Positions 2,229 through 31,674 of a stretch of 42,352 nucleotides of DNA are shown piece after piece; positions within the stretch are counted from its first letter, which is position 1, and each line of letters begins with the position of its first letter. The position numbers and the translations under genes are program-made. Under the pieces are notes generated by a model. That model was given only the letters and a program-made list of their open reading frames with translations, had not been told where the DNA came from and ran no database searches. The DNA is from Chrysochromulina tobinii (Eukaryota > Haptophyta > Prymnesiales > Chrysochromulinaceae), in contig JWZX01003022.1 in the NCBI GenBank assembly GCA_001275005.1, positions 1 through 42,352 of the forward strand. The letters run 5' to 3'.

Positions 2229-2314
2229 TCCGAGAGGCCATCAGGCCGGCTCAAATGACCTCTGATGACCACTGATTGCATCCCTTATCCGAGAGGCCAT
2301 CAGGCCGGCTCAAA
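2229..2314 (+). repeat. introner-like element with perfect 27-bp flanking duplication, not in an intron
   Basis: A 27-bp sequence beginning TCCGAGAGGCC and ending GGCTCAAA occurs at 2229-2255 and again at 2288-2314. The 32 bp between them begin TGACCTCTGATGACC and end TTGCATCCCTTA, matching the start (CCTCTGATGRCC) and end (TTGCNTCCCTCAT) of the element seen inside several introns of the neighbouring gene. Here it lies on the + strand, antisense to the protease gene, and the right copy overlaps that gene's stop codon. The lower match at its end and the lack of a terminal AG fit a copy not under splicing constraint. Confidence 0.75.
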
Positions 2315-5300
2315 GGTCATATCGCACCCAGTCGAGCCCGACGCGCTCGAGAGAGAATGTGGGCCACCAGCGCAGGTCGAGCTTGAGGGTGGTTACGCGC
2401 AGCCGACCCTCGAGGTCGACGTACCTGATGACGAAGGCACTCAGACGCAATCAACGACACAATCACCGACCATCACCGACCATCAGTGGTGGCCATCAGC
2501 GTACTTGATGCGGAGCACGTCGCCGTCTTGCTTGTGCTTCACGCACGCGAGGAAGGAGGGCAGATTGGGCGTGGGCGTCGAGTCCACCTAAACAGGGAAG
2601 GAAGGGAGGCGCGCGCTCGGGTCAACCTCATTCAAAAGGACGGTAGGGATCGGACGTCGGCGTCGGAGCCCACACACACCTCAATGATGTGCGAGGTCGG
2701 CGCGAGATCATATCTCGACGAGGGAGATCCAAAGAAGCGATACGAGGCGTACACACCGCCTGAGGCCGGCGGAGCGCGCTGCTGGAGCACCGCATCCGGC
2801 GTCTCTTGGAGCAAGAGCCCTGCCCAGCCGAGCACCCTCTGCGTGCCCAGGCCGTCGAGGGCGAGCGTGCGGCAGCGGTGCGTCAGGGGGACGCCCTCGC
2901 GTACCTGATGAGGGACGCAATCATCGGTGCCATCTCACGCACTCAGAGCCAATCAGAGCCAATCAGAGGCAATCAGACAGGCGCGCAGGGAGGCACTCGG
3001 GGGCAGTTGAGTGTGACTCCAGCGTGCTTTGAATCCTCGCGTCGAGCTCGCTTACCAGCTGCACGGTCACCTCATCCTTCCCCTGCAACGCCGCGTCAGC
3101 AGCGAGCAGCGAGCGGATCGGCACGCCGTCGATGCTCAGCAGCAGATCACCGCCCCGCAGAGCTGCCCCCCCGAGCCCCCCCGAGCTCCCCCGAGCTCCC
3201 CCCGATCTCGTCAATGGGGCCGCCGCCATTGCCGCTGGAAGCTCCGTCATGAGCGCCGTCGTGAGCGCCATTGGAGGAGGGGGCCGTGACGTGGCTCACG
3301 CAGAGCACTGAGCCGCCGGCCTCGCCATAGGCCTCTTCGACGCCATCAGCGCCAGGGCTGCTGACGGCGCTGTGAGTGCTCGCGACGGCTCCGTCCGCGG
3401 TGGAGCCGGCGGCGTCGGCCAGCGCGGGCGCGGAGGCATCGAGCAGATCATCAGGCACGCCGAGCCGGCGCGCGGCCGCCATCGAGATGGGCTCGAGCAT
3501 CGCACCTGATGAGGGAGGCAATCAGAGAGGCCATCAGAGGCCATCAGAGGCCATCAGAGGCCATCGAGATGGGCTCGAGCATCGCACCGAGAGTGCGCCA
3601 GCGGGGAGGCTGGACTCCCTTGCGCAAGTGCGCCGTCGCCTCGGCGAGATGATGGACGGGCACGCCGCGGAAGATCTGCGAGTTGTGATTGCCTTTTTGG
3701 TACGCGCACGAGGTCCAGAGGGCCGTCACCTGATGAGGTGCGCAATCGGCGCTCATCAGCCGCAATCCGCCGCAATCCGCCGCAATCCGCCGCAATCCGC
3801 CGCAAGGTCGATGGGGTCGGACTGACCTCGCCCTTGTCATTGGCAATGACGCCACCGTCGACGGGGGGCGCGACCTCCAATCCGATCGTCTCCGAGTTCG
3901 AAATCTGAGCGAGCGAGGGAGTCGGGCGCCGTGGTGAGCACTGGCACGCAAAGGGGGGGAGTCTTCGCAATCAGAGGCAATCACTCCGAGGGCCTCACCT
4001 GGTAGCGCGGCGGGTTTGGCAGCGGCAACTTGATCCAGCCTGAGTTCGCCACCTTCGTCTTGCGAGCGACGAGCTCGACACGGCGCGAGGCATCGAACTC
4101 CTCGTTGAGCCCCGATTTGAGGCCAACGAGCCACGCGGACGTGCCCGTGCTCATCGTGCGCGTGTCCATGGCGAGCCGGGCCGACGTGGCGCGCGCGCGT
4201 CGAGGCAATGCCGCCGGGTCGTACTGCACGAGCGCGAAGTTGTGCATGGGGTGCACGAACACGACACGCGCGGGCACCGCGGCCGCGGCCGCGCTGTTGC
4301 CGCCCACGGTCACGATCACGTCGCCGAGCGTGGACGTGACCGTGTTCCGATCGACCGCGACCAGGCCCTGCGCCGCATCCAGCACCAGGCCAGCGCCGCG
4401 GTAGCGCATCCCCGTCTCCCCATCAATGGAGAAGGGGCGTGTGAAGTCGACTGTGACCAACGATGGCGCGAGGATCGAGGAGACGCTCGGCACGACGCTC
4501 GGCTCGCCCTGGGTCTTGCCGCTCGGCACGACGCTCGGCTCGCCCTGGGTCTTGCCGTCACCGCTGCTGCTGCTGGTGGTGCTGCTGCCGGTGCCGGTGC
4601 CGGTGCCGGTGCCGGTGCTGGTGCTGCTGGTGCTGGTGCTGCTGCTGCTGCTGCTGTCGCCGCCGCCGCTTGCGTCGCCGGTAGACGTCCCTAGGGCAGC
4701 AGGCGTGGGCGCTGTCTTGGGCGGCGCCTCGGCCCGCCACACGCCGTCCGCCGAAGGCTTCCACAGCAGGGCGCCGTCCTGGGCATATGGGGTGGTCGCG
4801 GTGTCCGCGGTGTCCGCGGTGTCCGCGGTGGAGGCGGTGGGGGCGGCAGCAGCTGGGCCGGCGGCTGCACCAGCAGAATCGGCATTGTGCGGCAGCGTGT
4901 GCGTCTGCCAGGTGGACTCGGAGAGCCGCGGGTCCCCGCGCACCGTATCGGCGATTTGGAACCACTTGCGATCGACGGTGAGCGAGGTGAGCTGTACATG
5001 CGTCCTCTCGGCGAGGTCGTAGAACTTGATGGTCAGCTGCTCGCCGTGCGTCGTGTTGCGCATGATCTCGATGAAGGAGGCGAGGTCAGGCGTGGGCACG
5101 CCACCGACGGACGCGATCACGTGCCCGCGCGCCAGCCGCGCCTGACGAAGCATGCCGCCCGGATGCGCATGAGTGGCAATCAGTGGCCATCAGTGGCCAT
5201 CAGTGGCCATCAGAGGTTCTCACCTGACGAAGCATGTAGCCCGGATGCGCCACGTACACTCCACGTGGCGCGACGCCGTGGTTCCGCGCCTGCTGATAGG

Positions 5301-6655
5301 AGAGCTCATTCACAATCGCGCCGCCCATCTCAAAGTAGCGCGAGGGCGTGAGCGCGTGGAGGTCATCCACGCGCAGGCTGTGGGAGATCCGCTGCCCACC
5401 GCGACAGACCTCGAGCGCCACGTGGCCGCCCACCGCGGCGTCGAGCGCCGCCTCGAGCGCGATGAAGCTCGTGCACCACCGCCCCGCCACCCGAAGGAGA
5501 ATGTCGCCCGGCTCGAGCACGCCGTCAGCAGGCCCCTTGGGCAGCACCTGATGAGGGAGGCCATCAGAGGCCATCAGAGGCCATCAGAGGCCATCAGAGC
5601 AGGACCCCTTGGGCAGCACCTCGGAGAAGACGAGCAGGCCGAGCTCGTCGGGCAGCTGGGCGCGAAACGCGGCCTCCTCGGCGGCGGGCAGCCCGAGACG
5701 GCGCGCTTCGTCAAACGGCTGGTGCAGGCACACGGCCTGCAGCGTGCCACGTGTGACGGGCTCTCCAGCCTGTAGCAGGCGCAGCGCGCGCACGGCGCGG
5801 TCGAGCGGCAGGAAGAAGCCGGCCGAGGTCCCCACCTTGCCATGAGAGGTAATTAGGGGACAATTAGGGGGTAATTAGGGGGTAATCAGGGGTCGTCAGT
5901 GGTCATCAGAGGGCAGTCCCCACCTTGCCGCCCGCGTTGAGCGCGATCGCGTGGCCCTTGCCGTTGAGCACCGGCGAGCCTGACGAACCTCCAGAAGTCC
6001 CCGAGGCCGAGTGCATGTAGAAGGTGTCCATGTCGTTGTAGCCGTTGCGATTGTACGTGGGCGCGTTGCGGTCGAGGCGCGCGAGCGTCGAGCGGTGGAT
6101 CGACGACTTCTCACCCGCGTTGTTCCCAATGATCACGATGTCAGCGCCCACGTACGCCTCATCCGGCGCGAGCGGCAGCTGCACGACGTCCATGTGCTCG
6201 ACCGCCTTTGGATCGAACCGGAACAAGGCAAAGTCATGCACCGGGTCGTAGTACGCGACGGTGAGCGGCACCTCCTCGTTGTTGGCAAAGATGGCCTCGG
6301 CGACGATCGGCCCAGGACCTGCGACGTGCCGGTTGGTCATGATGTAGCCGCGCTCCTTGTCGACCACGAAGCCGGTCGCCTGCAGCGTGCCCGACTGAGC
6401 GGTGTCAAAGGCGCGCACGCGGTTCACCTTGATAGACACCACCGCGGGAAGCGCCGCCGTGATCATCGCATTCCACTGCTCTGGCGAGTAGGTCGCCTCC
6501 GTGGCACGTGGTGAAGTGATGGGCGGCTGCGCCTCCGCATGTGTTAAGGTGGCCGCAGTGGCCGCCGTGGCGCTGCACGCTGCAAATCGCACGACGTGTG
6601 GGCGCAGCAGCGCCGCAGCAGCCGGCCGCACCGATTGCGCGAGACGCCAGAGCAT
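2310..6655 (-). CDS. DEG7: DEG7/Nma111-type tandem HtrA (DegP-like) serine protease, 10 exons
   Basis: Exons in transcript order: 6655-5924, 5835-5620, 5547-5224, 5141-3999, 3904-3827, 3729-3588, 3505-3056, 2904-2680, 2587-2505, 2424-2310. The phases agree across every junction, except for one frame change inside exon 7. The product is about 1,168 aa, near the family's usual 1,000-1,100. From ATG 6655 the first protease domain shows the triad His110 ([10 protein letters not shown]), Asp141 (DPVHDFALF) and Ser225 (GGSSGSPV). PDZ regions follow, then a second, degenerate protease domain ([27 protein letters not shown]) whose His position reads VDRNTV, as expected for this family's inactive half. 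Further PDZ segments ([13 protein letters not shown]) end in WWPTFSLE. The N-terminus ([19 protein letters not shown]) looks like an organelle presequence; another in-frame ATG lies at 6736. Relatives act in the nucleus or plastid. A 36-bp tandem repeat and CTG-type tracts expand the linker of exon 4. Confidence 0.92.
2425..2504 (-). other. intron 9 of DEG7, introner-like
   Basis: It splits an AAG codon after ATCAA; the acceptor is ATCAG. The intron begins GTACGCTGATGGCC and the next exon begins GTACGTCGACC. The body is made of CTGATGGTCGGTGATTG-like units and ends TTCGTCATCAG. Confidence 0.8.
2588..2679 (-). other. intron 8 of DEG7 with exon-like 5' end
   Basis: Phase 0, GAG|GT to TTTAG. 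Near its 5' end the intron reads GTGGGCTCCGACGCCGACG, which closely matches the start of the following exon (GTGGACTCGACGCCCACG). It lacks the CTGATGGCC units, so the flanking-copy feature is not limited to introns with that body. Confidence 0.7.
2905..3055 (-). other. intron 7 of DEG7 with introner-like 3' half
   Basis: Donor GTAAGC after a CTG codon, acceptor ending GCGTCCCTCATCAG. The 3' half holds CTGATTGCCTCTGATTGG units. The 5' half is unrelated sequence. Splicing here joins DEVTVQL to VREGVPL in frame. Confidence 0.75.
3506..3587 (-). other. intron 6 of DEG7, introner-like with 28-bp exon copy
   Basis: Phase 1. The first 28 bases of the intron (GTGCGATGCTCGAGCCCATC and on to GATGGC) are repeated perfectly as the first bases of the next exon. 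The remaining 54 bases are CTCTGATGGC units followed by TGATTGCCTCCCTCATCAG. This is the clearest copy of the family. Confidence 0.85.
3730..3826 (-). other. intron 5 of DEG7 with GGCGGATTGC tandem units
   Basis: Phase 0, GAG|GTCAGT to ACCTCATCAG. The body holds four to five tandem copies of GGCGGATTGC, a variant of the CTGATTGC unit. No clear copy of flanking exon is seen. Confidence 0.75.
3905..3998 (-). other. intron 4 of DEG7
   Basis: Phase 0, CAG|GTGAGG to CTCGCTCAG. Two TGATTGC units sit near the 5' end; the rest is C-rich. No strong flanking duplication. Confidence 0.75.
4485..4556 (-). repeat. 36-bp perfect tandem duplication in DEG7 coding sequence
   Basis: Two identical 36-bp units (4485-4520, 4521-4556) encode [12 protein letters not shown] twice. 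The adjacent 4557-4680 is a CTG/CCGGTG microsatellite encoding Ser-Thr and Thr-Gly runs. Both lie in the linker before the degenerate second protease domain, where length change should be tolerated. Confidence 0.9.
5142..5223 (-). other. intron 3 of DEG7, introner-like, exon copy at its 3' end
   Basis: Phase 0. The last 27 bases of the intron (GCGCATCCGGGC to CTTCGTCAG) repeat the last 27 bases of the upstream exon with two mismatches. The rest begins GTGAGAACCTCTGATGGCC, continues with CACTGATGGC units and ends TGATTGCCACTCAT. Confidence 0.85.
5548..5619 (-). other. intron 2 of DEG7, introner-like with exon copy
   Basis: Phase 0. Intron start GTGCTGCCCAAGGGGTCCTG and next-exon start GTGCTGCCCAAGGGGCCTG differ by one inserted base. 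The body is four TCTGATGGCC units ending CCTCCCTCATCAG. Confidence 0.85.
5836..5923 (-). other. intron 1 of DEG7, introner-like, 14-bp duplication across both junctions
   Basis: GGCAAG|GTGGGGAC is present at both the donor and the acceptor junction, so the boundary could slide anywhere in 14 bp but gives AG|GT at both ends. The insert begins CCTCTGATGACC, holds CCCCTAATTAC units and ends CTCTCAT. Confidence 0.8.
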
Positions 6656-9573: not shown

Positions 9574-12400
9574 ATGCTCGATGTCTTGCTTGAGCTGGCT
9601 AGGCTCGAGCGCACCGCCGATGGCGTGCCGTTTCGAACCTACAGCGTGCCCGACGAGTGGCGCCTCGATGATGAGCGACAGGCCCAGTTTTGGCGCGAGG
9701 CTGCCAAGGCATCGGAGAAGCTCGGCTTTGAGCTCGAGATGGCGATGGCTCGGGCAATCCTCGGGGCGCTGCTCGTGCAGAACAAGTACGTCGACGGGCA
9801 ATCGAGTACGTTTCGCAGCTGGCCATCCCGTGATCGCCATCAGCTCTGGGCGACTGCGTGGCTCGCGCTCCGCTTCGTTTTTGGAAAGAGCTACGAGAAC
9901 GCCGATGTGGACAAGTTGATCCTAGCGCACATGTCCGCCGGGTGCGCGACCGACGCGCTCGTCTTTGCCGTCCGGTCGGAGCTACTGCGCCGCGGCTTCC
10001 TCGTGCCTGCCTCGCTGGACGCGCCCGACGGCCCGCTCAAGCTCTCGCGCGAGCAAGCGAGCTTCCTGCTGGACGGCGACAAGCTCTTCGTGCTGCGGAC
10101 GGCCGTGGCGGCACGGCGGCCTTGGTGGGCTCTGCCACTGCAAGCGCAGTCCGTGGCGGCGCCGCGGCCCGCAATGGGCAGCGCGGCGGCCGCGCTCACC
10201 GCGCGCTCCTTCCGCTGCGTGCTCCTCGAGCCGCTCGGTAGTGGCGGCAGCATCGACGGCGCGTCCGGGAACGCAAGCAGCCAGGACGGCGCCCTCGTCG
10301 CTCAGGACGGCGCCTCGCCGCTGCCGAGCGCACTCTTCGTGCCAGTGGGTGGCGGTGCGCCACTTGCATGCACGCACGTCGAGGGGGGCGTGAGCGAGGG
10401 CGGCGAGTGCTTCGCTGCGCTCGCATGCACCTTTGACGAACCCACCTCATGCATGGAGGTGATTGCGATGGATTGCGATGGATTGCGATGGATTGCGATT
10501 GATTGGCACTCATGGCTACCGATAGCCACGGTTCGCCTCCGATTGTGATTTCGATTGATTGCGATTGATTGCGATTGATTGCCACGGTTCGCCTCCGATG
10601 ACATCCCCCTTCCGCTTCCACTTTCCCCACAGCTACGCATGAGCGGCGCGTCGCGTCTGCCACCGTTTCGCGTCGAGGCGCTCGTTGAGGGTCCAAATAT
10701 GGCAGGTGAGACGTGGAGACTGCTGCAGTGCCAGCCGCTACCGACGGGTGAGGAGCGCCTAAATCAAGGGCGCGACGCCCTTCGGTGCTTCCTGCCGTCC
10801 GCTGCGATACCAACCCGCGGGGGGCTTGGGGCGTCTGCTGGCGCTACTGGCGCTGGCGGTGCTGGTGGTTCTGGCGGCGGCGGCGGCGACGGCGGCGGCA
10901 GCGACGGCGGCGGTGGAGATGGCGGCGGTGGCGGTGGCGGCGGTGGTGGTGAGACAGCTGAGCTCATGGCTTCCGCGTTTGGTCGCTTACTTGAGAGCGT
11001 GGCCGCCCAGTCGGGCGGCGGAGTCTTCGTCACCGACGGAGGGCGCCTCGTCCTCCATCGATGGCCCGGCAAGCAGAAGCAGCAGGCGACCGTTGTGCTC
11101 TGGCTCGCCCTCCATCTCCGGCCGGAGATCTCGTACCTCGAGCACGAGATTGATTGGCTCATCGGCGCGCATCACAGCCGTTCGGCGATCCCCGACTGCC
11201 CGACGATCCGAAAGGAACTCGCTCGACTTGGTTTCATGGAGCGGACTGCGGGCGGCGGCGGCGTGCGCCTCCTCGAGGAAGGGCTCGCCACGGCGCTCCG
11301 TCGGTTGGGACTCGATCCAAATTTGGGACTCGATCCAAATTTGGGACTCAATCCTACCGTATCGGGCGCCGTGTCGGGCGCCGTCGAAGGGCAGGCAGAC
11401 GGGTTGCCTGGGCCACCGGCGGCCAATCAACCGCCACCAGCTGTCACTCCACCGCCATCGGCGCCCAGCACGGCGCCACCACCGGTCACTCCACCGCCAC
11501 CACCGGCCAATCAACCGCCACCAGCGCCCAGCACGGCGCCACTGGTGCCCGTCACGGCGCCACCGGCGGCAAACGTCTCGAGCGACGGGCGCTGGCGGCG
11601 AGCAGCGCCAGCGGTGCCACTCGCGGCGGAGGCGTCAGACCTCGGAGGAGTGCTGACGTCAGACCTCGGAGGGTTGCCAACGGCCGTTCGTGATCGGATA
11701 TTGCATGCGCGTCGTGCGGTGGCCGCCACCCTCTGCTTCGCCCCCCTGACCGGTAAGGGTCTCGGGGTGCTCGCCGCGCGTGCCGTCGAGGAGGGCGAGC
11801 GCATCATCGAGGAGGCGCCTCTGCTGACGCTCACTCCGGATGGGGAAGGGCGCTACGATGGGCAAGTACGCGAGTGAGATGGAGCGGGAGGAGGCACGTT
11901 CGCTGCTGGCCACACTCTGCGTCGCCGGAGTGGGAACCGCCGATGGTGCAGGGGCGAGGGCGGGGGCGAGGGTGGGGGCGGGGGAGGACGGCGCGGAGGC
12001 GCGGTGCGCTCACGACGACGCTTCACTCCTCGGTCGCGCTCACAATGACGCGTCACACCTCGGTCGCGTCATCGAAGCGAACGCCATCGTGATCGAGCCG
12101 TCGGCCGAGCCCGGACGCGAGATCCGCTTCTCCGTGGTCTGCCTGATGATCTCGCGCCTCAATCACAAGTGCTCGCCCAGCTGCAACGCCGAGTTCCGGT
12201 GGAATACGAGGCTGGGCAAGGGCACGGTGTACGCGCTGCGACCGATCGCCCCGGGCGAAGAGATCTGCTTCGATTACGGCGTGGGCAAGCTGCGCTCGCG
12301 CGCCGACCGCCAGAAAGTGCTGCGCGAGAAATTCGGCTTCGAGTGCTGCTGCGAGCGGTGCCGTGAGGAGTGCGACGAGGAGCGGGGGCTGGGCTGGTGA
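9574..12400 (+). CDS. Tandem DUF2087-like / SET-domain protein
   Basis: Exon 1 is 9574-10458 and exon 2 starts at 10633 (phase 0; DEPTSCME joins LRMSGASR). About 883 aa. Two segments match the winged-helix-like DUF2087 pattern: one around residues 80-150 (LRFVFGKSYENADVDKLILA, RSELLRRGFL) and one at about 11090-11270 (EISYLEHEIDWLIGAHHSR, RKELARLGFMER). A Gly run, 18-bp GLDPNL repeats and a Pro/Ala linker separate these from a SMYD-like SET domain: GKGLGVLAARAVEEGERI, SRLNHKCSPSCN, APGEEICFDYG and a Cys-rich post-SET FECCCERC. A lysine methyltransferase role follows from the SET family; nucleic-acid binding by DUF2087 is inference. The frame changes by one base between 11822 and 11877, between two conserved SET pieces, so a short intron or an indel is present there. 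Confidence 0.72.
10459..10632 (+). other. intron 1 of the SET gene, GATTGCGATTG repeats
   Basis: GAG|GTGATTGCGATGG to CCCCACAG|CTACGC, phase 0. Built of TGATTGCGA units. A 19-bp sequence (GCCACGGTTCGCCTCCGAT) occurs twice inside, at 10525-10543 and 10581-10599, as if the intron itself was partly duplicated. Confidence 0.8.
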
Positions 12401-12658: not shown

Positions 12659-14283
12659 TCACAGCTCCTCCTTTTGGACTTCTTCCTTGGCGCGCTCGTC
12701 GGAGAGGTCCTCAAAGCTCTCCGCCTCGATCGCCTCACGCACATACTGCTGCATCATCGCCTCGCGCTTCTCCTTCGCGAGCTCGCGCTTCCGCTGCGCC
12801 TCAGCAGCTGTCATCACCTCCGTGCCGAGCCCGTGCTTGTCCATCCACGCCTGCAGAACCAACCAACGGCCATCAGAGGCCATGAGGGCCAATCAGAGGC
12901 TTATCAGTGGCCATCAGAGGCAGAGCATCAGTGACCGTCAGAGCAATCAGAGGCAATCAGAGGCAATCAGTGGCAATCAGAGGCAATCAGTGGCAATCAA
13001 AGGCCATCCATACTTGGAGGCCCAGATGAGGGACGCAATCAGTAGCAATCAGAGGCAATCAGTGGCAATCAGAGGCCATCCATACTTGGAGGCCCTCGGC
13101 GCCCTTCTCCGCCGCGATCGCCTGCACGAGCTCCTCTACCCCTTTGCCTCCATCCTTGAGCGGGTCGCCAGCTCCTGGTGGTAACCGCTTCTTCTTGACG
13201 TTGTCGTACACGTACCTGATGAGGGAGGCAATCAAGCGGCACTCTCAGCGGCGCGCAGCCGCCTGCAATCCGAGGCCATCCGAGGCCATCCGAGGCCATC
13301 CGAGGCCATCACGCACCCCTGCGGCTTGCGCCCCTGTACGTTGCTCCGCGCGCTCTTCACACATCGGAAGCCCATGTTATCGGCAGAGGAGTCCTCAGTG
13401 TTGCCCATGCGCGTGCTCGTGCTGACCTTATGATTCCACTCACCCGACGCCGAGTCGAGGTACGAGCCGCCGCGCAGCACGCGCTGTCGTGACGACTTGG
13501 CGAGGTATGTGCTCGTCCACTCCCACACGTTGCCGAGCATGTTGTACAGTCCGGCGGCGTTGGGCGCGAAGGCATCGGCGGGCGCGAGACCGCCAAACCC
13601 GTCGAGGGCCGCATCGGAGCTCGGGAAGAAGCCCTGCCACACGTTGAGGCGCCACTCGCTCCCATTACTCGGCACCTAGGGTGAGGTTGGGGCTGGGGTG
13701 AGAGCCGGCGTAGGGGTCAGTGCTTGGGGTGGGGTTCAGGTTCGAATTAGCTTCCGCTGCTCGGCACCTCGTCTCCCCATGGGTATGGCTTCATCGCCTT
13801 GGTGAGGCCGACGTGCGGCTGGCGCGCCGCGTACTCCCACTCCGTCTCCGTGGGCAGCCGCTTGCCCGCCCACTTGCAGTACGCCTTCGCATCGTTGAAC
13901 GAGATGTGCACCGCCGGATAGTTGAGGCGCGACTTGATGCCCGACTTGGGCCCGAGCGGGTAGCGCCACGATGCGCCACGCACAGCGAGCCAGTGCGTGG
14001 CGTCCTTGACCGTCTCGTTGGTTGTGGCGCGTGCCTCCTCGGTGGCGTACAGCTCGAGCACGAACGACCATCCGAAGCCCTCCGCCTCGGTGCGGTAGTT
14101 GGTTGCCTTCCGGAACGCCCTGAATTGCTCGTTGGTCACGACGGTCGCGTCCATGAAGAACTCGCGAACCTCGACGCCCTGCGGCTCCAGGTCGTCGCGA
14201 CCGCGCGGCTCGTTGGGCAGGCTGCCCATTATGAACGAGCCGCCGGCGAGGCGAACCATGCCATCGGGGATTGTGTCCGACAT
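12659..14283 (-). CDS. Formylglycine-generating-enzyme (SUMF/FGE-sulfatase) family protein
   Basis: Exons 14283-13768, 13675-13317, 13215-13086, 12850-12659 join in consistent phase to 398 aa. The FGE fold is clear: MVRLAGGSFIMGS near the start, NYPAVHISFNDAKAYCKWAG, RLPTETEWEYAAR, YPWGDE|VPSNGSEWR across intron 1, GLYNMLGNVWEWT, VLRGGSY and a closing NMGFRC. After GGSY the sequence is LDSASGEWNHKVS, so the two active-site Cys of true FGE (336 and 341 in human SUMF1) are absent. It may be a non-converting paralogue, a different oxidoreductase-type member, or a binding protein. A charged helical tail of about 100 residues follows, ending QKEEL. No signal peptide is seen after the ATG at 14283. 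It is divergent with the LRR chimera. Confidence 0.88.
12851..13085 (-). other. intron 3 of the FGE-family gene, double/nested introner-like
   Basis: Donor CAA|GTATGGATGGCC, acceptor TTCTGCAG. A 23-bp sequence spanning the exon end (transcript strand GGGCCTCCAAGTATGGATGG plus CCT) is at 13073-13095 and again inside the intron at 13001-13023, just after GCGTCCCTCATCT. The body is many TGATTGCCTC/TGATTGCCAC units. Two insertions in series explain this best. Confidence 0.75.
13216..13316 (-). other. intron 2 of the FGE-family gene, introner-like
   Basis: Phase 2. GG|GTGCGTGATGGCC, then four CTCGGATGGC units, ending TTGATTGCCTCCCTCATCAG. The next exon starts GTACGTG, similar to the intron start GTGCGTG. 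Confidence 0.8.
13676..13767 (-). other. intron 1 of the FGE-family gene with exon copy
   Basis: Phase 0. The intron starts GTGCCGAGCAGCGGAAGC and the following exon starts GTGCCGAGTAATGGGAGC (14 of 18 identical). The body is CCCCAACCTGA-like, not CTGATGGCC, and ends CCCTAG. Confidence 0.8.
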
Positions 14284-14517
14284 TTACAATTAAAAGTCAG
14301 CTGGTGACGTGTTCTTTTCGCGCGACCAGACCTCACTGCAGCTCCATTGAGACAACGCCAATGTACAGGTTAGAGATTTTTTTTCTCTGCTTCCAGCCCG
14401 AGAATTCCGCAACAACGTGTCCTAGTATGAATCTTTTGATACAAGAGATTTTGGAGATACCCCTGCAACCGCGTCCCCAAATTCTGAGGCGACGCGGAGA
14501 CCCTTGAGGCGCAGCGG
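14284..14517. promoter_or_regulatory. divergent promoter region, FGE-family and LRR-chimera genes
   Basis: 234 bp between divergent starts, locally AT-rich (TTACAATTAAAAG, AGATTTTTTTTC). No defined element beyond that. Confidence 0.3.
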
Positions 14518-17500
14518 ATGGAGGCCTTTCCATCGTCCGAGAGGGTGCCCATCGTCGCAGGGCAGCCGCGGTCGGATGAGCCCGACGTCATCAATCCATG
14601 GGTTCGAACGAGGTTGTCGAAGGTGCGCAACTTCATCAGCGATGCAGCGCAAGACGTTGTTAGCATGAAGAACGACCTTCAAAGCTTGTGGCGCCGCCTT
14701 CGCGGCACGTATGACGACTTTGAGACAGACATGGATGAGGCGTGGGAGCTCCACAGGTGGGAGGTGTCCATGTGCGTTGCAGCTCTCCTCCTCTCAGCGA
14801 GCCTTCCTCTTCTCGTCCTAGTGCAACAACTTAGGGGCTCACAGCACAAACCGTCCGTGACGCCTTGGGCCGATGCCGCAGCTGCCGATTTGAGCCCGGT
14901 CGTGGCCCTCTGGTACAATGGCGAGTGCATCAGCCGAATGGCCGACGGCGCACAGCTCGCGACCGATCTCTCTGCTCAGCTAGTCGACGGCCTCGCCCCC
15001 GATGCCATCCTGGCCATCGTCCTGAGCGCTCTCGGGCTTTTCCTCATCGCCCGGCTCGGCGGCATCCCCGTGCCCACGGGAGTCGTGGGCACGGCCCTCT
15101 ACGCCCTCTGGATGGCCCTCCTCGCACTCCAGTACGCTCTCGTAGGCATGTCGCTCGTGATGACGGCGCGCTCGCTCGACGCGTTGACCTACGCGCTCGA
15201 AGGGTGCGCCCATAGCGCGGCGACCGTCCGATGGAGCGTGCGCCTCACGCTCGTCGCACAGCCCGCGCTGCTCGGGCCGGCTCTGCTGCTCTTTCTGTAC
15301 AGCTATGCCTTCTCGACCGGCCTCAAGGTGTGGAGCGCGACGCAAGAGAGCGCGCGCAAGCTGCTCAGCCGTGAATCGCTGGTGTCGCAGCTCAAGGAAT
15401 CGGTGCAGAGCGTGCCCTTGGTCTCTGCCCACTACTACGTCTCCTACGCCGCGTTCCTCTGGGCCTGCGCCGTGTTGCTTCTCACGTGGCCTGTGGCGAT
15501 CTTCTTCCTACCGGCTGCCGCCCTCATTGCGGCAGCCATCAAGGGCATTTACTGGCTCGCTGGAGTCACGGATGCCCTGATCCCTCCCCCGGCGCAGACA
15601 TGCGGCATCGAGTTTGGCGCCGGGCTCACCTCGTGGCTCAAGGAACTCAGCGACGTATCCTTTGCACCTGGGGGCTTCAGCCTGAGCTCGAGCGCGAGAT
15701 CGATCGAGCGGATGGGCTTCCTCATCATCGAGTTCGGCTCGGATTCGCACGCCAGACTTGGACTGTCCCATCGCAAAGAGCCAGACGACCCGTCGCTCGC
15801 GGCCCTCAACCTCTCACTGGGCGTCTTCTGGCTACTCCTGAGCCTCGCACTGCCCGTGTGCTTCGGCACGTGGCTCGCCATTCCACTCATGCTCGGCTCG
15901 GCGAGCCTCGAGGCCGTCGCCAGCACGATGGTCAGCCTGGGGCTCGCTGCCCTCGATTCCCTCGTGTCGCTCCTCACGCTTCACTGGCGCTGGACGGACT
16001 TGCTCGCGCTGGACGCCATGCTCGCCTTCCTGCAGGCGCCCGTCTCGGCGCTCGGGCAGGCGTCGGGCGCCATGGTGGGCGTGGGGAGCCTCTCTTATGA
16101 CGAGCTGACCGTCGGCGCTTCCCAACTGCTCGTGCTCAACAGCGTGCTGGCACTCGTCAAGCCTTTGGCCATGGTACTGACCAAGATGATGCTCGTGACA
16201 CCTTGCTTTGGCTCTCAGGTCCTCGAGTTTGCAATCAACCTGGGTGCAAACAAGCTCGGCGCTCGCGTGAGCAATGCGAACGTCATCGTCAAAGTGGATC
16301 TCGAGTCGCCGGCGGCTCATGCGGGCGTCCTCGCGGGCGACCTCGTCCTCGCAGTCGATGACGTTGAGTGCAAGGGGGGGCTCACCGCACCCAAGCTATG
16401 GACTGACGGCGCCGGCCGTCCAAATCGCAAGCTTCGCGTCCATCGTCAAGGAGAGACCGTCCTCCAAACACGCTTCGCTGCAGAGGCCATCAGCTTCGGC
16501 GACTGCGTGCTGTCGGAGGTCGAGGGGCTGCTTGCCCGGCTCGGCGCCAAGCCCGGCCATTACGGCGCCATCGTGCTCGACTGCGCCCGTACGACGCTCG
16601 ACGAGGACGATGTCGCGGTGCTGGTACTCGCGATCCCGATGCTCAGGGAACTTACCGAGATTAACCTGAGTGGCAGCGACATGGGCACGGAGACTGTGAT
16701 CGCGCTCGCAAGGGCGTTCAGTGAGGGCTCGAACACCAAGCTCGCCAAGCTCGACGTCTCGGGCAACCGTTTGGAGCCTGCGGGCGCAAAAGCTCTCGCT
16801 GCCTTCGTGGGCGCGAGTTCGCTAAGGGAGGTGAGTCACTGAGTCCCTTGGCACCTAAGTCGGCGCTCTTTGCTCCGATCGGCGCTCTCAGCTCTGAGTT
16901 CTGTCGCCCGTCCCCTTGCACACCAATCGTGCTTCAATCGTGTTGAAGCTCTGCGCACACCTTGTTCACAGCCGCTTCACACCCTATCCACAGGTGAATG
17001 TGGATGGCGTGATGCTCCCAGTCGACAAGCTCAAGGGCACCGATCCGGTCGATGCGCTCGACTTGTCGCGCAAGGGGCTCGGCACGGCGTCTGCGTTCGT
17101 GATCGCCACCCTGATCGGCACGAACCCCACGCTCAAGTCTTTGAACCTCTCGAGCAACAAATTGGCGGGTGAGGCTTCGATTTGGCAGGAGGTCTTTGGC
17201 GAGGACATTGACAAGTCGGACGCGGGCCTGGAGGCGGCGTTTGCCAAGGTGGACGTGGACAAGAGTGGCAAGATGGACGCGGCCGAGGTTAAGGCATACA
17301 TCCTGACCGTGTACAAGAACGGCCTCGACGACAAGGTGGTCAGCGAGATGATGGCGACGGCGGACACGAACAACGACGGAGAGGTCGACCTCAACGAGTT
17401 CAAGATCATCATGCGCGCCGGGCCCCAAAAGTCGGACGAGAGGCCGCAGATGTCCGGAGTGAAAGCCATCTGCGATACCTTGCGCACCAATAGCACGCTC

Positions 17501-19383
17501 ACATCCCTCAACCTCTCGACCAACCGTCTTTGCGGACTAGACGTGTTTGGCAACGGCTCCTACACCGCCGAGGTGATTCTGGTGCTCGCCGAAGCCCTGT
17601 GCACCAACAAGTTCAGCAACTTGTTGAAGCTGGACCTGTCGTGGAACGACATTGGGTTGATAGGCGCCAAAGCTCTTGCTTCCGCACTTGTTGCGAATCG
17701 TTCAATCATAGAGGTGCGCTCAGCGCCACCGCCTGGGCTGCCCTCCCTTCCACTCACAGTCCACGCCGCGCCGTTTGTATAGGTGAATCTGGAGGGCTTT
17801 CCTCTCCCTGTGAAGAAGCTCAAAGGCACGGATCCTGTAGAGGCGCTCGACTTTTCGCGCCAGAAGCTTCGGCTCGCGTCTGCAGTGGTGATCGCCGCCC
17901 TGATCCGCGTGAATCGCACGCTCACCTCCTTGGACCTCTCGAAGAATCAATTGCTCGGCGTGTACCCGCTCATTGAGTCGACTGGGGTGGAGGCCATCGC
18001 GGACGCTCTGGTCCTCAACTCAACGCTCGCCATGCTCGACATGCGCAACAATGACATCAACGGCGACGCGGCGACGCGACTTGCGACCGCTGTGCTCTCG
18101 AGCAAGTCGATGGAGGTCTTCAACGCGATCCCAATAAAGGCCTTGCGCGCCGACGATGTGACTGTGCTCGACCTGAGCGGCAAGGGCTTGATGGCTGTCG
18201 AGGCGCACGTAATTGGCAACCTTGCGGCGAAGTGCCGCTCCCTGACGTCGCTCGATGTCCGCCACAACGACATCTCTGGCACGGCTGCCAAGCAGCTCGC
18301 CAGCGCTGTCCTCGAGAGCAACTCGATGGAGTTCTTCAGTCTGATTCCAATGAAGGCCGAGCACAACTTGGGAACGACTTCCAGCCGACTTGGACACAAA
18401 AACCAAAAACCCGGAATCCTGGGGTTCGAGCTCGAGCTGAGCAACAGGGGGCTCGGTCCAGTGGAGGCGCACGTCATCAGCTCCCTTGCGGCGCAGAACG
18501 TGGCGCTCACGAGCTTGTTGCTCGGTGGCAACTCTCTCAAGGACGAGGGCATCAGCGCGATCTGTGAGGCCATCCAGAGCAATAAGGAGTCCAAGCTCGC
18601 CTCGCTCGACATCTCCGGGAACAGCATCGGCCCCGAAGGTGTCAAGAAGGTGGTTGCCATGGCGGCTGCCGCTCTTTCGCTCACAGAGGTGCGCCCAAGG
18701 CGCCAAGCTCTCCCCCCACCGGACCGCCTGGGCTACCTCCCTTCCACTCACAGTCCACGCTGCGCTGTTCACAGGTGAATCTGGATGGATTTCCTCTCCC
18801 TGTGAAGAAGCTCAACGGCACGGATCCTATAGAGGCGCTCGACTTTTCTGGAAAGGATCTCGGTTTCGCGTCTGCGGCTGTGATTGCCTCCCTCATCGCC
18901 GGCAATAGTTCGTTGCGTGAGTGCAACATGAGCGGCAACAGCAGCTTGGACAGGGGATCAGCCGAAATACTCGCGAACGTGGCCAAGGCTAAGGGCATAA
19001 TGCTGTTCGGCATCAAGCCCGGCCAGAAGGAGGCCGACTTTCACCATCTGAAGCTCACCCACGCGGATGCCATCCTCATCGCGTCGGATGCGGCAATCAG
19101 CGCGAATCTGGACGGAGTGAATCTGGATGGATTTGCTCTCCCTGTGAAGAAGCTCAAGGGCACAGACCCGGTGTACCAGCTTGACCTCTCGAACAAGCGT
19201 CTTGGCATGCCGTCAGCCATCGTAATCGCCTACCTGATCACCACGAATCGCACGCTGACAAGGTTGGACTTGACACACAACCGCATGACTTTTACGGGAG
19301 AGGCAGCTGTGCGAATGGCTGGTGAAGACAAGGGTTCTGGGTTTGAACTGGCAATACACGGGGCAGTCGGTGCCTTGGGCTAA
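14518..19383 (+). CDS. Polytopic membrane / PDZ / LRR / EF-hand / LRR chimeric protein
   Basis: Exons 14518-16830, 16994-17713, 17783-18688, 18775-19383, all phase 0, giving 1,515 aa. The first 560 residues hold several hydrophobic segments, e.g. CVAALLLSASLPLLVLV, ILAIVLSALGLFLIA, FLWACAVLLLTWPVAIFF and FWLLLSLALPVCFGTW. Then comes a PDZ-like domain (ARVSNANVIVKV, GVLAGDLVLAVDDVE). The rest is leucine-rich repeats of the ribonuclease-inhibitor type (LTSLNLSTN, LAKLDVSGNRL). Blocks of the form VNLDGFPLPVKKLKGTDPVE start exons 2-4 and recur once more near 19118. An EF-hand pair (DVDKSGKMDAAE, DTNNDGEVDLNE) is set between two LRR units in exon 2. A membrane-anchored, Ca-responsive scaffold is the inference. 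No enzyme domain is seen. Confidence 0.82.
16831..16993 (+). other. intron 1 of the LRR chimera
   Basis: GAG|GTGAGT to CTATCCACAG|GTGAATGTGG, phase 0. It precedes the first VNxDG block. No repeat units. Confidence 0.85.
17192..17437 (+). repeat. EF-hand cassette, copy 2, inside the LRR region
   Basis: Aligned without gaps to 7107-7352 (about 87% identical). The LRR pattern runs up to LKSLNLSSNKLAGE before it and resumes at SGVKAICDTLRTNSTLTSL after it, so the cassette interrupts an LRR array between two units. Confidence 0.9.
17714..17782 (+). other. intron 2 of the LRR chimera, homologous to intron 3
   Basis: GAG|GTGCGCTC to TTGTATAG|GTGAATCTGG. It shares a block of about 47 nt (ACCGCCTGGGCT to GCGCNGTT) with intron 3, with three substitutions and one indel. 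Confidence 0.85.
18689..18774 (+). other. intron 3 of the LRR chimera, homologous to intron 2
   Basis: GAG|GTGCGCCC to GTTCACAG|GTGAATCTGG. See intron 2. Intron and following exon start were duplicated as a unit. Confidence 0.85.
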
Positions 19384-19451
19384 GCCACCTACATCGGCGG
19401 CTGCGCCTCAGCATCCTGTACGCGCGTTCGGTACATGTATGTTACAACTGA

Positions 19452-19524
19452 GCAGCTGATGTTCACGCAACAGCAGCTGATGTTCATGTACTATCGTGAG
19501 CAGCTGATGAGCAGCTGATGTTCA
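19452..19524. repeat. GCAGCTGATGTTCA repeat cluster
   Basis: Three full copies of GCAGCTGATGTTCA (19452, 19473, 19511) and a partial one at 19500, between the LRR chimera and the laminin-G-like gene. Each copy carries the palindrome CAGCTG (E-box form), so a regulatory role for the downstream gene is possible. Confidence 0.7.
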
Positions 19525-19734
19525 TTTGACCAGATGTTCACGAGTATCTCCTATCTGAAGTTCCTTTCAAGATTTTAAGTTTCTAGACTGGGCTCGTGCT
19601 TAGACGCTGAGTTCTCTTTTTTTCTTTTCGCTCACCAGTGGAGCTTTTCACGGGTCGCGGACATACGCCTGTGATGAAAACTTGTAAACTCCTGGCTGGT
19701 CGGACGAGATAACCAACCATTTTCTTTGCGAAGG

Positions 19735-22700
19735 ATGCTCGCAAGCACGCTTGCTCTGATGGTCGCTCTTGCGCTCGGTGCCCGCACGCCCGGCGAGGTT
19801 GCGCACTACCGCTTTTACCAACACGAGTGCAATGCTGGGTCCGTCGCGGAGGCGCGGCGCGCCTCCGCATCGTCGCGAGTGCTCAACGTAAACCAGAGTG
19901 CGGGTGCCACGTGCCTCGAGCTCCAGCAAGGAGTTAGCCTCGAGAACAAGTGCGTGCGTGACTACACGACCACTCCCAACTGTACGTTCTCGCCGCTCGT
20001 CTCGAGCTCCGTCGGCTCGCGCCCCGACTTCGCCGCGGAGATAGGGTCGGGCTTCACCATCGAGGCGTGGCTTGCCGCCGACCCGCGGCCGCTGCCAGAG
20101 GCAAACGCGCATCGCGTCATCGTCTCGCTCGCAGACAAGGCGCCCACTGCTGACGAGCCTGACACGCTCGATCGCTGCAAGGTTGTGCAGAGCTCCTCCG
20201 ACTCGAGCACGCCCATCAGTTTCGAGCTCCTGCAGATGGGCGAGGGCTGCGTCTCGATCAAGTTCAAGTACCGCAAGAGCGGGGACGCGAGCACAAGCCC
20301 ATGCGTGATGTTGCCCGCGGACGACACCGGCTTGCTGGCCGGAGGGTGCGGGGTCGCCGATCGGCTCAACATGAGCACGCTAGGCGCGGGCTCCCAGCAG
20401 CATCTCGTTGTGTCGATCAACGGCGAGAATCCCACGGTGAGTGGACAGCCAGCGCTGCCGCGCTTCGCGACGTACATCGATGGTGTGCGCGTGGTCGACT
20501 CGGAGACGTCAGACAGCAACGATGCGCGCAGCTATAAGACCGGCCTGGCCATGCAGTTCTTGCCCAGCGGCACGCGCTTCAACTTCTCGGCTGTGTGGAG
20601 CCCGCGTCACGTGCTGCGCATCGGCACTGATGGGCTCGGGGGCAAGCGGCACGTCTCGAGTGGGAATCGGTTCCTCGGCGACTTCTACGCATGGGGTGGG
20701 CGACTGCACGGGCTCCACTGGTATGGCCGCGCGCTCAACGCGAGCGAGGTACACGCCAACTACGCTGCCGGCCCCGACAACTCCTACCCACGCGCGCAGG
20801 CTGTGAGCTTCGCAGTGCTCGAGGACACGTGCACGCAGCTCCCTGACCTTCGAGCCCACATCCGCGACTACGATGTCGACACGCTCGGTCGGCCGCAGAC
20901 TTTGACGGCGGCACTCGCCGGCACGCGTGCACCTGCGCGGGGCGCCCTCTACTCCGATGTCGGCTGCACTCAGCCTCTTGGAGCGGCAGATGACCTTCCG
21001 GGCGTGTACTTCCGAGCGGTCGCCAACGAGTTCTCGGCACCGCTCGGTGCGCCCTTTGCGTCGCCGCTCGTGCCGGGAAGCACAACCTACACGATCCTCG
21101 CGTGGGAGGCACGCGATGGGGCGGGCGGCACCGCCCTTGGCAATCTGAGCATCGAGGTCGTCGCCGTCAACGATGAACCGGTCGCGCTGCCGGGCGTCGC
21201 CGAGGCCTACATGAGCGTACTTCAAACGCTCGTGATGAACGCGTCAGATGTTGACCACGTATGTGCACCGGGTGCGGGCGCACAGGGCGTGTGCATGGTG
21301 CGCATCACGCAACCGCCAATGCAGGGCACCCTCTTCACACTCGATGGCACGCCGATCGCCGGGCTTGCCGTGCCCTCGCTTACGATGCCCTCGGCCGTCC
21401 TCAACCGGACACTGCTCTACCGCTCGCGCACCTTCCCGCGCGACTGCTCCAACGGCTGCCCACGTCAGGTGGGCACCGACTCGTTTCGATTCGAGGTGCT
21501 TGATCCGACGGGCGCCGTCTCAAGCGCATCGGCGCCCTTTGAGCTCGTGATCGTCGGCGGGCTCGAGGCGCGTTCAACCAGCCTGAGCCCCGCAGCGCGG
21601 GAGGAGGCGCCCGCAGTGCTCACGCTGCGCGCGATCAACCGGTGCACTGATGGACCCGGATGGACTCTGGATTGAATACAACTGACTATGATAGACTTTG
21701 ATGATCTCTGCGTCACGCTGAGTGTCACTGATTGTCACTGATTGCCGTACAGATACCGCCACGTGGCCGACCCGCGCCTCGCGACCAGCTGGTTCCAAAT
21801 CGAGACGCTGCCCGCGCACGGCGCCCTCTATCAGCACACGCCCGAAGTTGCCATCGCCATCGGGCGCGTCGACGGTCTCGTCTGCGGCGCGCATGTGCTC
21901 ACCACGGCGGGTCAGCAGTGCGTGTCCGAGGTGCTGAGCGCGCTCGAGCCGTTACGCATCACGTCGCGCGGCACCAACGTGAGCGACGGCAACATGACCT
22001 GCGCCGACGACGCCGACTGGTACTGCGCGCGAGTCGTCTACTGGGGGGCGCGCGACTTCTTCTCTCACCCGAGCGTCAACAGGTACTCGGGTGAGGCGCT
22101 CAATGTGAGCGACGACTCGGTGGCCTTCGTTCTGCGCTCGGCAGTGGAACAGTCGGCTGCGCAGGTGACGGTGCGCGTCGTCAATGTCAACGACCCGCCA
22201 TGCCTCGTCTCGCCGGGAAACATGACATTCACGCCCTCCTTGTCGGGCTCAACGAACCTCAAGGCCGTCGGGCGTGGCCTGCAGATCATCGACCCCGATT
22301 TGGGCATAGGGTACTGGATGGTGAACCTGCAGGTGCATCACGGCCGCTTTGCATCGGTGCGCCACGGCAACGTGCTCAACCCGGCGCGCTACGACGAATG
22401 GCAGGGCTACCTGCCCATCGTAGCGCACGAGCACCTCTCCTACTGCCCCGTCGACGGCTTTCGCCTATGTTCGTGGAGTGGGTATTGCGACGATACGACA
22501 TGCATTACGGGCGCGGGCGACGCCGGCGACGCGTCCAACGTGCGCGTGTTTCAGGTGCTGCCACGCCGAACGTGACCGGATTACCATCTGCTCGCGATCT
22601 GATTGCATGTGATTACCATCTGATGGCCATCAGCGTATTGCAGGTGTTTGCCACGCCGTACGCGACCAGGCTCCTTCTTCGCGACGTGCTCTACCGCGGC

Positions 22701-24416: not shown

Positions 24417-24888
24417 CCCGGAGAAACAACCGCAATTCGCGGGTTGCGGGCTCATTGCTCATTGGCGTTCAAGCATGCGATCAAGACAGTGTGGTGGCCA
24501 GAGATGTAGCGTTGGGCTAGTCGTGTTGTCTGTTGAGGTTGTGGGAGGTGTAGCCAAGCGCGTTTCACATATTGATATTCAGCTGAAGGAATGTATGAAA
24601 ACGCTTCAGCTGTCATTGTCATACCGCTACAGCTCCCGGCTGTACCTCCAAAGCTCCGCTCGGCTGCACTCGTCCGCTCATCGCGTAACGCTCTTCACTC
24701 AGTTGGAAATCAGGATACTTGGTTGGTGTGCAAATCGAAATCCCGGGATTTTTTTAAATCCACCTCGCGCCCCTCCCTCTGCCACTTTGGGTAAAGGACT
24801 TTGGAAGTTAAAGTTTGTAAAGGGACTCGCTGAACAGCCAGAATGGCGAATACGCTTGAGCAAGCGCGCGCGAGACCTGCCTGTGTGC
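24417..24888. other. convergent intergenic stretch
   Basis: 472 bp between two stops. It contains a perfect 14-bp palindrome AAATCCCGGGATTT near 24738-24751, followed by a T run. No gene seen. Confidence 0.45.
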
Positions 24889-25644: not shown

Positions 25645-25789
25645 TCGGTGCGGGTCGGCTTCGCGGCGAAAGACTGTGGCGAAAGTGCTCGTAACGTCGA
25701 TACATTTGCGTTCCTACCAATTGGCAAACCCACCCGGGCCGGACTGCATGGCGTGTGAATAACCGCGACGGGCGGGTAATTTTCCCAAC

Positions 25790-29739: not shown

Positions 29740-31674
29740 TCACTCGACGCTTTTATCGCGGTCCTGCTCAATGAGAAAGGTCCACCATGAGAGGAACTGC
29801 AGCGGCGTCTTCGCCGGGTGCATCGAGATGGGCACTGGGCAGCGCGTGGCGTTCATGTACACAGACTGGCACGTGCTGCGGTCGATGAGCGTGGCCGCAC
29901 TAGTCCGGACGGTCCCGTTTCGACGAACCGTCCCGTTTCGGAAGAGTGACGACGGAAGCGTGGCACGGCCGTCCCGCGCGTCGATGGTGACCAAGCTTGG
30001 ATCGACCGTTGGACTGTAGAGAAGCTCGTTGCACTTGCGCCGTCTCGTATTAATGACGAACCCGGCGAGGCGTGAACGCGAACATTCACAGGGGATCGAG
30101 GGCAGGAATGGCATCATCGTGACGCACGTGCACTGCATGAAGCGAATGTTGAGCAGATGCATGCAAAGGCCGAGGGCTGAGTCCTCAAAGTCGGACGCCC
30201 ACTCGCACCGCGCGCTGCGACTCGTGCTCTCGTTCTTGAGCACCCAAGCGGTGTTGAGACCTCCTGACGCGGAGAGCATGAACGGCGGCGTGACTGGGGG
30301 AGAGTTCGATGCGTTGGTACTCGACGATGCGTTGCCAAGTTTGCGATCGACTCGCAAGACGCGTGGGCACGTGCGATCGGGCGACGCGATGGCCGCCACG
30401 CGCTCGATGCATTTGCTCTTCACGAGCACATAGAGCGACGCGTGGGAAAACCCCTCGAAGCCGCCCTGAGCATAGGGGATGCTGTGGGTGTCCTTGCGCA
30501 CGCGCCGCCCCGCCTCCGTCTCCCATCCAATTTGGAACTCGTCGTCAAACGCACGGTAGAGAGCCTGGAAGGTCGCCGTCGCACGCAGCGGCGCGCGATA
30601 CTCCTTCTGATGGGCCGGCAGAGGATCCGGTGGCCCCCTCGACACCCACGGCGTGCCTGTGTACGAAGGCATGTATGCGCCGTTCCCAAAGTACAACGGC
30701 CCGTCACTGCCGACGGTCCGGTCGAAGCCATGCAGCAGGCGCAGCAGCGCGCGCGGCAGCACGATCGAGTCAAGGTCGATCTTGAGATAGAAACGCTTTC
30801 GCGGCAGTGCCTCGAGCATTGCCTCGAAGATGGCCGCACCCTTGGCCCAGTTGTGATGGTTACCTGATGGGGGAGACGCAACCGAACGCAATCAATGGGA
30901 ACCAGCGCAGCGGCGGCTATCAGAGGCCATCTGAGGCCAACCGAGGCCAACAAAGGCTGATCAACGGCCATCAGAGGTAGTATAGTTACCCTCCTTGAAC
31001 TGCCCATGAAACGTGCGGATGCGTCCCCAGAAGCAACGCGGGAAGATACGGGGCCTTGGGGTCTCGGAGGCGGCTGCGCACAGAGGCCATTGCGCACAAT
31101 GGCGGAGAGCGCTGAAGCCACTGTGCAGCACCGCGTGAGTCGCGAGCCACGGCGGGGGCACGAACGAGAAAGGCAGATGGCGCGGCTTTCCTCGACAAAA
31201 CGGTCTGCCGTCTTTACACTTTCTCAGGGCCTCGAGATCGGCGTCCTGCGAGCAGTTTGGGCCCGGCGACCACTGCTGTCCTCGCGGTGTGAGCACGGCC
31301 TTCTCGCAGATGACCGTGCAATCGTATAGGGCCACGGCATCCACCGTCGCAGGCCTGCCCATTGAGGAGCTCAGGCTGCGCATCCACGTGATCATGGCGC
31401 ATGCGAGGAGCTCGCCTGCGAGGCACGCCACCTCGCTGGTCTGTGCGGAGGTCGCAGAGGGCGCGACGGCCATGAAGCCGAAGCCAATGTCGCCTACCAA
31501 TGTCGCCTTGGTTGGTTTGAAGCTCCGCTCGTCGCCGAGGAGTTCTTTTCGTTGACGCGCCAGCTTAGTCTCGTTCAGGTCCTTGGCTGGGACGCAGATC
31601 CTCGGGTCGGACATCAGCGCCCCGGCGTACCCTTTGTCGAGGCTGCGCGTCTCCGCCAACGGCCTCTGAACCAT
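29740..31674 (-). CDS. GT31-like (galactosyltransferase/fringe-type) glycosyltransferase
   Basis: Exons 31674-30990 and 30863-29740 join in phase 1 (FKEG|NHHNWAKG) to 602 aa. The catalytic part reads like the fringe/core-1 galactosyltransferase group: WAKGAAIFEAMLEALP, then FYLKIDLDS with the DxD-type metal site (DLD), PLYFGNGAYMP, and GGFEGFSHASLYVLVKSKC in place of the GGAGYxxS loop. A Cys-rich C-terminal extension with Asn-x-Ser/Thr sites follows, suiting a Golgi lumenal enzyme. No clear signal anchor is found after ATG 31674; the frame is open a little further 5', so a first exon may be missing. Glycosyltransferase call moderate; acceptor unknown. Confidence 0.65.
30864..30989 (-). other. 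intron of the glycosyltransferase gene, introner-like
   Basis: Phase 1. The intron starts GTAACTATACTACC and the next exon starts GTAACCATCACAAC. The body begins CCTCTGATGGCC and ends GCGTCTCCCCCATCAG, matching the family in DEG7. Confidence 0.8.

Follow-up and report, generated by a model that had tools for sequence, protein, structure and literature searches.

The genome of Chrysochromulina tobinii very probably holds thousands of short mobile introns that, judged by their anatomy alone, behave as introners with variable duplications of 14 to 46 bp. The recent, repeated gain of introns by a copied family, as in the original prediction, is well supported by two high-copy families, by the duplications, and by elements shared between unrelated genes. 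As an explanation of the whole we favor, at just short of even confidence, introner-like introns that include a LINE-type engine. How spliceosomal introns originate is a long-standing question, and systems are rare in which a new intron has a related copy elsewhere and its doubled target is still readable. Here some duplications reach 46 bp and are 100% identical, and elements have matched copies in unrelated genes; the insertions can therefore be ordered by age, their ends can be mapped, and new introns might be caught soon after birth.

Duplicated exon copies in DEG7 and its surroundings

The window is the whole analyzed stretch of 42,352 nucleotides (contig C1863:1-42352) and comes from an assembly of 53 Mb in 2,253 contigs. 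Its DEG7 gene (Table 1) has a trypsin-like domain supported by Pfam, with PDZ below the cut-off, and a DNA search with the DEG7 region gave no second copy among the 40 scored of 1,097 candidates. Introns 1, 2, 3, and 6 had been predicted to sit between repeats of exon sequence, and we found such copies with lengths of 14, 17, 28, and 29 bp, respectively; the cores made of units of about 10 bp and the endings ascribed to them were likewise seen in DEG7. Exact 14-mer repeats separated by 40 to 200 bp formed eight binned clusters in the DEG7 stretch, compared with a mean of 0.008 and a maximum of 1 cluster in 500 codon shuffles. In this stretch the repeats are thus in excess over shuffled sequence.

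The predicted splice sites are supplied in three ways. In class A, which includes the clean cases of family 2, the donor comes from the left copy and the AG from the element; in class B, the element provides the donor and the last bases of the right copy provide the AG; and in class C, both sites come from an AG|GT inside the duplication. Intron 1 belongs to class C, with an AAG|GTG inside the copies that can supply both sites. In intron 2 (class A) the left copy gives the donor and the core gives CATCAG, while in intron 3 (class B) GTGAGA opens the core and the AG is the end of the right copy. The exonic copy at intron 3 encodes AHPGYMLRQ, matching the related protein P0002, whereas the intronic copy would read AHPGGMLRQ; the conserved Tyr is kept in the former and lost from the latter, so the intronic copy has drifted.

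When one copy plus the core is removed at introns 1, 2, 3, and 6, the resulting protein is gap-free against its relatives at the modeled junctions. Junctions 1 to 6 are gap-free against P0001 (80% over 55% of the query), P0002, P0003, P0004, P0008, and P0071, of which P0004 and P0008 are from oomycetes and P0003, from Emiliania huxleyi, has no residues upstream of junction 6; E. huxleyi is the best named relative and indicates haptophyte kinship. The frame of this hand-built model breaks within exon 7 and continues in another frame, in which a comparison with P0002 and P0003 shows no gap at junctions 7, 8, or 9. A G-rich stretch lies at the frame change (window 3165-3200) and may reflect a small insertion, a missed intron, or an assembly error. 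This continuity of the protein supports insertion into exons, with the message restored by predicted splicing.

The element antisense to DEG7 (core, 2256-2287) is not a coding intron of this gene, given its orientation and its position at the stop codon. As it lies outside the coding sequence and also has a 27-bp duplication, insertion need not create an intron, and splicing would then filter which insertions survive in coding exons. Related cores had been predicted in further genes of the window, and similar arrays do occur there. The gene labels given to them held in part: Pfam supports FGE-sulfatase and SET, but the frames tried for "glycosyltransferase" and "laminin-G-like" had nothing above the cut-off. 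For the array at the DUF2087/SET frame, a splice-consistent offset was sought and not found. Intron content appears very uneven from gene to gene in the window, where long open frames (665 to 906 amino acids; 14488-28150 and 38359-41079) adjoin intron-dense genes. At 34009-34108 lies a direct repeat of two identical 42-bp copies, 16 bp apart, that has no relation to family 1 or 2.

Table 1. Features of the window, with the sites of family 2 and the contigs carrying endonuclease and reverse transcriptase (RT) matches
Feature	Position in window	Strand	Description
DEG7	~6655 to 2310	minus	nine-intron model, hand-built from sequence
DEG7 intron 1	5836-5923	minus	site 5828..5929; identical 14-bp copies GGCAAGGTGGGGAC at 5916-5929 and 5828-5841; core 5842-5915
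DEG7 intron 2	5548-5619	minus	site 5533..5621; copies at 5605-5621 and 5533-5549; 17 bp identical, longer with one inserted base allowed
DEG7 intron 3	5142-5223	minus	site 5141..5250; 28-bp copies, 26 identical, at 5223-5250 (exonic) and 5141-5168 (intronic)
DEG7 intron 4	3905-3998	minus	family-2 intron, 21-mer at 3925-3945; no duplication left
DEG7 intron 5	3730..3826	minus	degenerate units, CATCAG end; no clear duplication
DEG7 intron 6	3506-3587	minus	site 3478..3588; identical 29-bp copies at 3560-3588 and 3478-3506; class A
DEG7 intron 7	2905..3055	minus	ends TGATTGCGTCCCTCATCAG; short copy remnant (GGTAAGCGAG / GGTACGCGAG), by eye
DEG7 intron 9	2425..2504	minus	units, CATCAG end; short copy remnant, by eye
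Element antisense to DEG7, at its stop codon	2229..2314	plus	identical 27-bp copies at 2229-2255 and 2288-2314
Array, DUF2087/SET frame region	10525..10599	plus	identical 19-bp copies at 10525-10543 and 10581-10599
Nested arrays upstream of FGE-sulfatase frame	12868..13311	minus	doubled GGGCCTCCAAGTATGGATGGCC, by eye
Array in a further gene without Pfam match	30887..30977	minus	CATCAG end
Family-2 places	3905-3998		also L009, L025, L029, L032, L062-L096
Contigs with APE-type endonuclease and RT			C914, C1728, C1323, C1586, C962, C1004, C367, C1778, C767

Two high-copy intron families

(i) Family 1. The cores of this family are minisatellite arrays, whose CTGAT/CTAAT units may resemble branch sites. 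A 19-mer of the unit occurs 4005+4057 times genome-wide with up to 2 mismatches (control, 1+0) and the 20-nt 3' end 995+1055 times (~2,050) with up to 1 mismatch (control, 0); like all our genome-wide k-mer counts, these are lower bounds. The assembly is fragmentary and has probable haplotype pairs. The 20-mer had no match in IMG/VR, where records near the genome of the window may be left out. Besides the window, the sample held 20 stretches, each of 10 kb and spaced evenly over the contigs, for a total of 242 kb. Arrays with at least three units gave 57 rows in this sample, which were merged; after dropping arrays less than 90 bases from an end or longer than 400 bases, 44 were left, 11 of them in the window. 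With the units masked, the flanks of 16 of these 44 arrays aligned with a score of at least 12, compared with 0.5% of 1,408 cross-locus pairs. Flank duplications were found at 15 of 35 arrays in stretches chosen by hits (3.8% of 1,134 pairs) and, unmasked and pooled, at 42 of 79 (5% of 6,000 pairs). Most arrays have no duplication detectable by this flank alignment test; such arrays could be nested, of greater age, or of a different kind. Tandem series of exon copy plus core, in two to four rounds, were observed at L044, L063, L035, and L061.

(ii) Family 2. Listing direct repeats gave 86 pairs, 31 with array cores and 55 without, and in doing so we met a second intron family that lacks an array. 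Its layout is a conserved 26-nt block, TGCATGCMAGTGCTCACCACGGCGCC, followed by a variable pyrimidine tract and then CACAG. A 21-mer of this family has 638+666 (1,304) matches genome-wide with up to 2 mismatches (control, 0). A flanking duplication scoring at least 12 was found at 31 of 49 fetched copies, which are partly non-independent as several loci hold two or three, against 1.3% of 2,334 cross pairs; for the first 33 copies the figures were 23 and 2.1%. The copy starts exactly after the AG of the element in 19/49, with a variable 5' side, although 3 of these 19 are not clean (L029, L064, and the offset found for L078). L066 and L070 look like a single insertion found on two contigs, as do L093 and L096; each pair probably reflects haplotypes or a recent duplication.

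The same duplications in a family without an array indicate that the minisatellite does not define the process. Originally, the flanking exon duplications and a common core, described as a minisatellite, had been taken to define the family; minisatellite growth is rejected as the cause. Nor did repeats anchored on GT, whatever their family, support further families: among 57 such pairs, GC precedes the second copy more often (17/57) than AG does (9/57), and six of the nine pairs with AG clearly belong to family 1 or 2. That AG does not lead this list, which was drawn up without targeting a family, also counts against the explanation we favor.

The only exact match of the family-2 21-mer in IMG/VR (which may leave out records near the genome of the window) is in L082 (4335-4554), a contig that looks chimeric, with a bacterial or phage-looking stretch joined to a haptophyte-like end. 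That end carries (ACGAACCCTG)n and a family-2 acceptor, flanked by copies of ~38 bp that are nearly identical.

(iii) Same element in unrelated genes. Many similar introns lie at non-homologous sites in this genome, as is characteristic of introners in the broad sense, and in two cases the same element could be followed between genes. The element of L090 (contig C182) recurs at L099 (C670) with 47/48 nt identical, and that of L083 (C37) at L098 (C421) with 41/41, while the flanking exons of both pairs are unrelated by eye. Of these four sites, three each carry a clear duplication: 18 bp at L099, 35 bp with one mismatch at L083, and 46 bp at 100% identity at L090 (44 counted after the AG); at L098 only a decayed duplication is discernible by eye. 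The core of DEG7 intron 1 is 94% identical over 80 bp to contig C1641, and the two have CAAGGTGGG in common at the exon boundary. A 28-mer of this core has six genome matches with up to 2 mismatches, four on C1641, one in DEG7, and a weak one on C2177. The end of the L075 element has no further match at up to 2 mismatches, which counts against simple copying.

Insertion junctions and the source of the inserts

From 58 scored events in both families, we selected those of family 1 in which the donor is GT, GC, or GA and the duplication does not exceed 46 bp. The resulting 24 events with a splice-consistent offset, some of them nested (both L019 events and those at L030, L038, and L040), comprise 9 of class A, 9 of class B, and 6 of class C. 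Inserts tend to retain either the AG end or the GT end of the intron, and the opposite end is ragged. Microhomology of at least 3 bp with the array was present at the junction away from the splice site in 3/9 class A events (left; null, 2%) and 4/9 class B events (right, with L019 nested; null, 2.5%) and at the splice-site junction in 0/9 of either class, all of which are small samples.

If the left copy serves as the donor, it is expected to be a better donor than the exon copy. This is sometimes the case (GTGAGC versus GTGCGC at L070, GTAAGC versus GTGTGA at L091, and GTAAGC versus GTACGC at DEG7 intron 7), as judged by eye and uncounted. The left copy of L070 shows a donor change from GTGCGC to GTGAGC. 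L032 and L074 (minus strand) have long near-perfect duplications in which the only message-neutral offset implies a GA donor. A clustering of duplication lengths by helical turns was also noticed.

We propose that new introns arise when part of an existing one is copied into exon sequence whose target site is staggered. The variable duplications point to overhangs of 14 to 46 nt, or to a target that is copied again; filling in the overhang would double the target. One of the two copies would lie inside the new intron and be removed by splicing, leaving the message unchanged, with the splice sites supplied flexibly by class A, B, or C. In the most likely engine, excised and debranched intron RNA would be copied by target-primed reverse transcription of the LINE type. 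A start at the 3' end of the RNA with an early stop would yield class A, which keeps the 3' end and is truncated at the 5' end, and priming inside the RNA with a run to its 5' end would yield class B, which keeps the 5' end. That excised intron RNA is retroposed in this way on a genome scale, by LINE-type machinery working from the AG end or up to the GT end and doubling 14 to 46 bp, is a real but somewhat doubtful possibility; that RNA serves as the template, which enzyme copies it, and that the elements are spliced in the cell are inferred.

Target-primed retroposition of LINEs and SINEs gives variable duplications, a fixed 3' end with 5' truncation, and microhomology at one junction. Our inserts share with it the variable length of the target duplication and the microhomology at one junction, but they are pieces of introns, and at the RT loci checked we did not find a tail shared with a LINE. 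The clean family-2 cases and class A agree with a fixed 3' end and 5' truncation; in class B it is the 5' end that is fixed. The genome has 26 places with an RVT_1 match, and on nine contigs an APE-type endonuclease match lies at most 1.4 kb upstream of an RT match on the same strand, two of the nine having a stop codon inside one match. In nine RT frames, Pfam identified RVT_1 in all nine and RNase H in three. No array of at least three units was found at 12 RT loci of ~2.5 to 3.7 kb (a two-unit match occurs in two), and a 701-base stretch downstream of one RT match, inspected by eye, showed no partner LINE tail. The lack of any visible poly-A-like tail at the inserts counts against retroposition, and the tandem series of copy plus core argue against it as well, as they are no direct product of target-primed reverse transcription. 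Duplications as long as those seen here are not known for L1-type elements, which also counts against it.

Several of these features also fit the main rival, repair at the DNA level by template switching or at staggered breaks, which we consider unlikely as the full account, though it has to be taken seriously. In such repair, an exon end would anneal by a few bases to an existing intron, copy part of it, and return upstream, doubling 14 to 46 bp; repeated rounds would give the tandem series, and the positions of the splice sites would reflect selection. The microhomology at one junction, the presence of all three classes, the iterated units at L044, L063, L035, and L061, and the similarity of the DEG7 intron 1 and C1641 cores agree with this, and template switching explains the iterated units and the CAAGGTGGG boundary better than retroposition does. 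However, the shared CAAGGTGGG is a single pair in which AG|GT is expected anyway, the repair-type repeats of Daphnia measure 4 to 12 bp, and break repair alone leaves the AG-exact ends of family 2 with their variable 5' side unexplained. Exact AG or GT ends with a ragged partner fit the copying of intron RNA at least as well, although selection alone could account for such ends. The original suggestion of break repair that copies the target is therefore kept alive by the microhomology and the iterated units and loses its advantage at the AG and GT ends.

Many introners have been attributed to non-autonomous DNA transposons, and such an element would explain the high copy number, the copying from gene to gene, and a co-option of splice sites like that of known introners. 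A transposon appears improbable here, as the target duplication would have to be unusually long and loose: DNA-transposon-type introners have a short characteristic duplication of 3 to 9 bp, while ours vary from 14 to 46 bp, the 5' end is variable too, and by eye there is no terminal inverted repeat beyond CTGATG/CATCAG (6 bp), which the unit itself produces. Plain tandem duplication of exon sequence followed by minisatellite growth between the copies is very improbable, even though the duplication by itself could suffice for the splicing of class C introns and family-1 cores are repetitive, because the cores are common to thousands of places and those of family 2 are non-repetitive. In its pure form, it is ruled out by the shared cores and, for family 2, by the same element in unrelated genes. 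That we are looking at assembly artifacts or chance repeats, as a fragmentary assembly and the difficulty of assembling repeats might suggest, is hardly credible in view of the null controls, the precise protein continuity, and the conserved Tyr kept in the exonic copy of DEG7 intron 3 and not in the intronic one.

Retroposition of intron RNA, break repair, and DNA transposition can be tested directly against each other by the pattern of one fixed and one ragged end. If the retroposition proposed here is true, existing introns give rise to new ones throughout the genome by target-primed reverse transcription.

Relation to known intron gain systems

Introners were reportedly treated by Huff et al. 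in 2016. The comparisons that follow draw on parts of the published sources. New introns of Daphnia arise from staggered breaks and have repeats of 4 to 12 bp (PMC4202315); ours resemble them in having direct repeats of the target at both ends and an insertion at a staggered break, but the repeats at the opposite ends are of 14 to 46 bp, and the sequence between them belongs to one or the other high-copy family. Rogers and Bendich 2025 (PMC11782384) described repeats of 4 to 30 bp (mean, 11.4 bp) at 213 introns of all classes and, as we do, read direct repeats at intron borders as marks of insertion; those described here are long, mostly near-identical, and tied to two families. Fungal stwintrons, in the part of the source covered, have no duplication. 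The introner elements of Amoebophrya (PMC7789003) are likewise repeated introns with direct repeats at the exon-intron borders, but these repeats are of 3 to 5 nt, compared with 14 to 46 bp here, and they are accompanied by inverted repeats of 8 to 20 nt and non-canonical splice sites.

The closest likeness is to the introners of Gozashti et al. 2022 (PMC9860276), in which similar introns occur at unrelated sites with flanking duplications, and either or both splice sites are co-opted from the duplication, as they are here. Duplications are given there as 3 to 9 bp for earlier families and as 4 bp in the Symbiodinium example and in a Chrysochromulina MAG, and the main text does not contain tobin, Phaeocystis, Haptophyta, or minisatellite. 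In the literature surveyed, which consisted of passages from openly accessible papers, we met no introner family whose duplications reach such lengths and vary so much. The long variable duplications predicted to set these introns apart from described introners thus do so, at 14 to 46 bp versus the published 3 to 9 bp, together with the one ragged end and the 10-bp minisatellite core of family 1. The introner kind is known, and the long variable duplications, the ragged end, and the minisatellite core of family 1 look like its new features.
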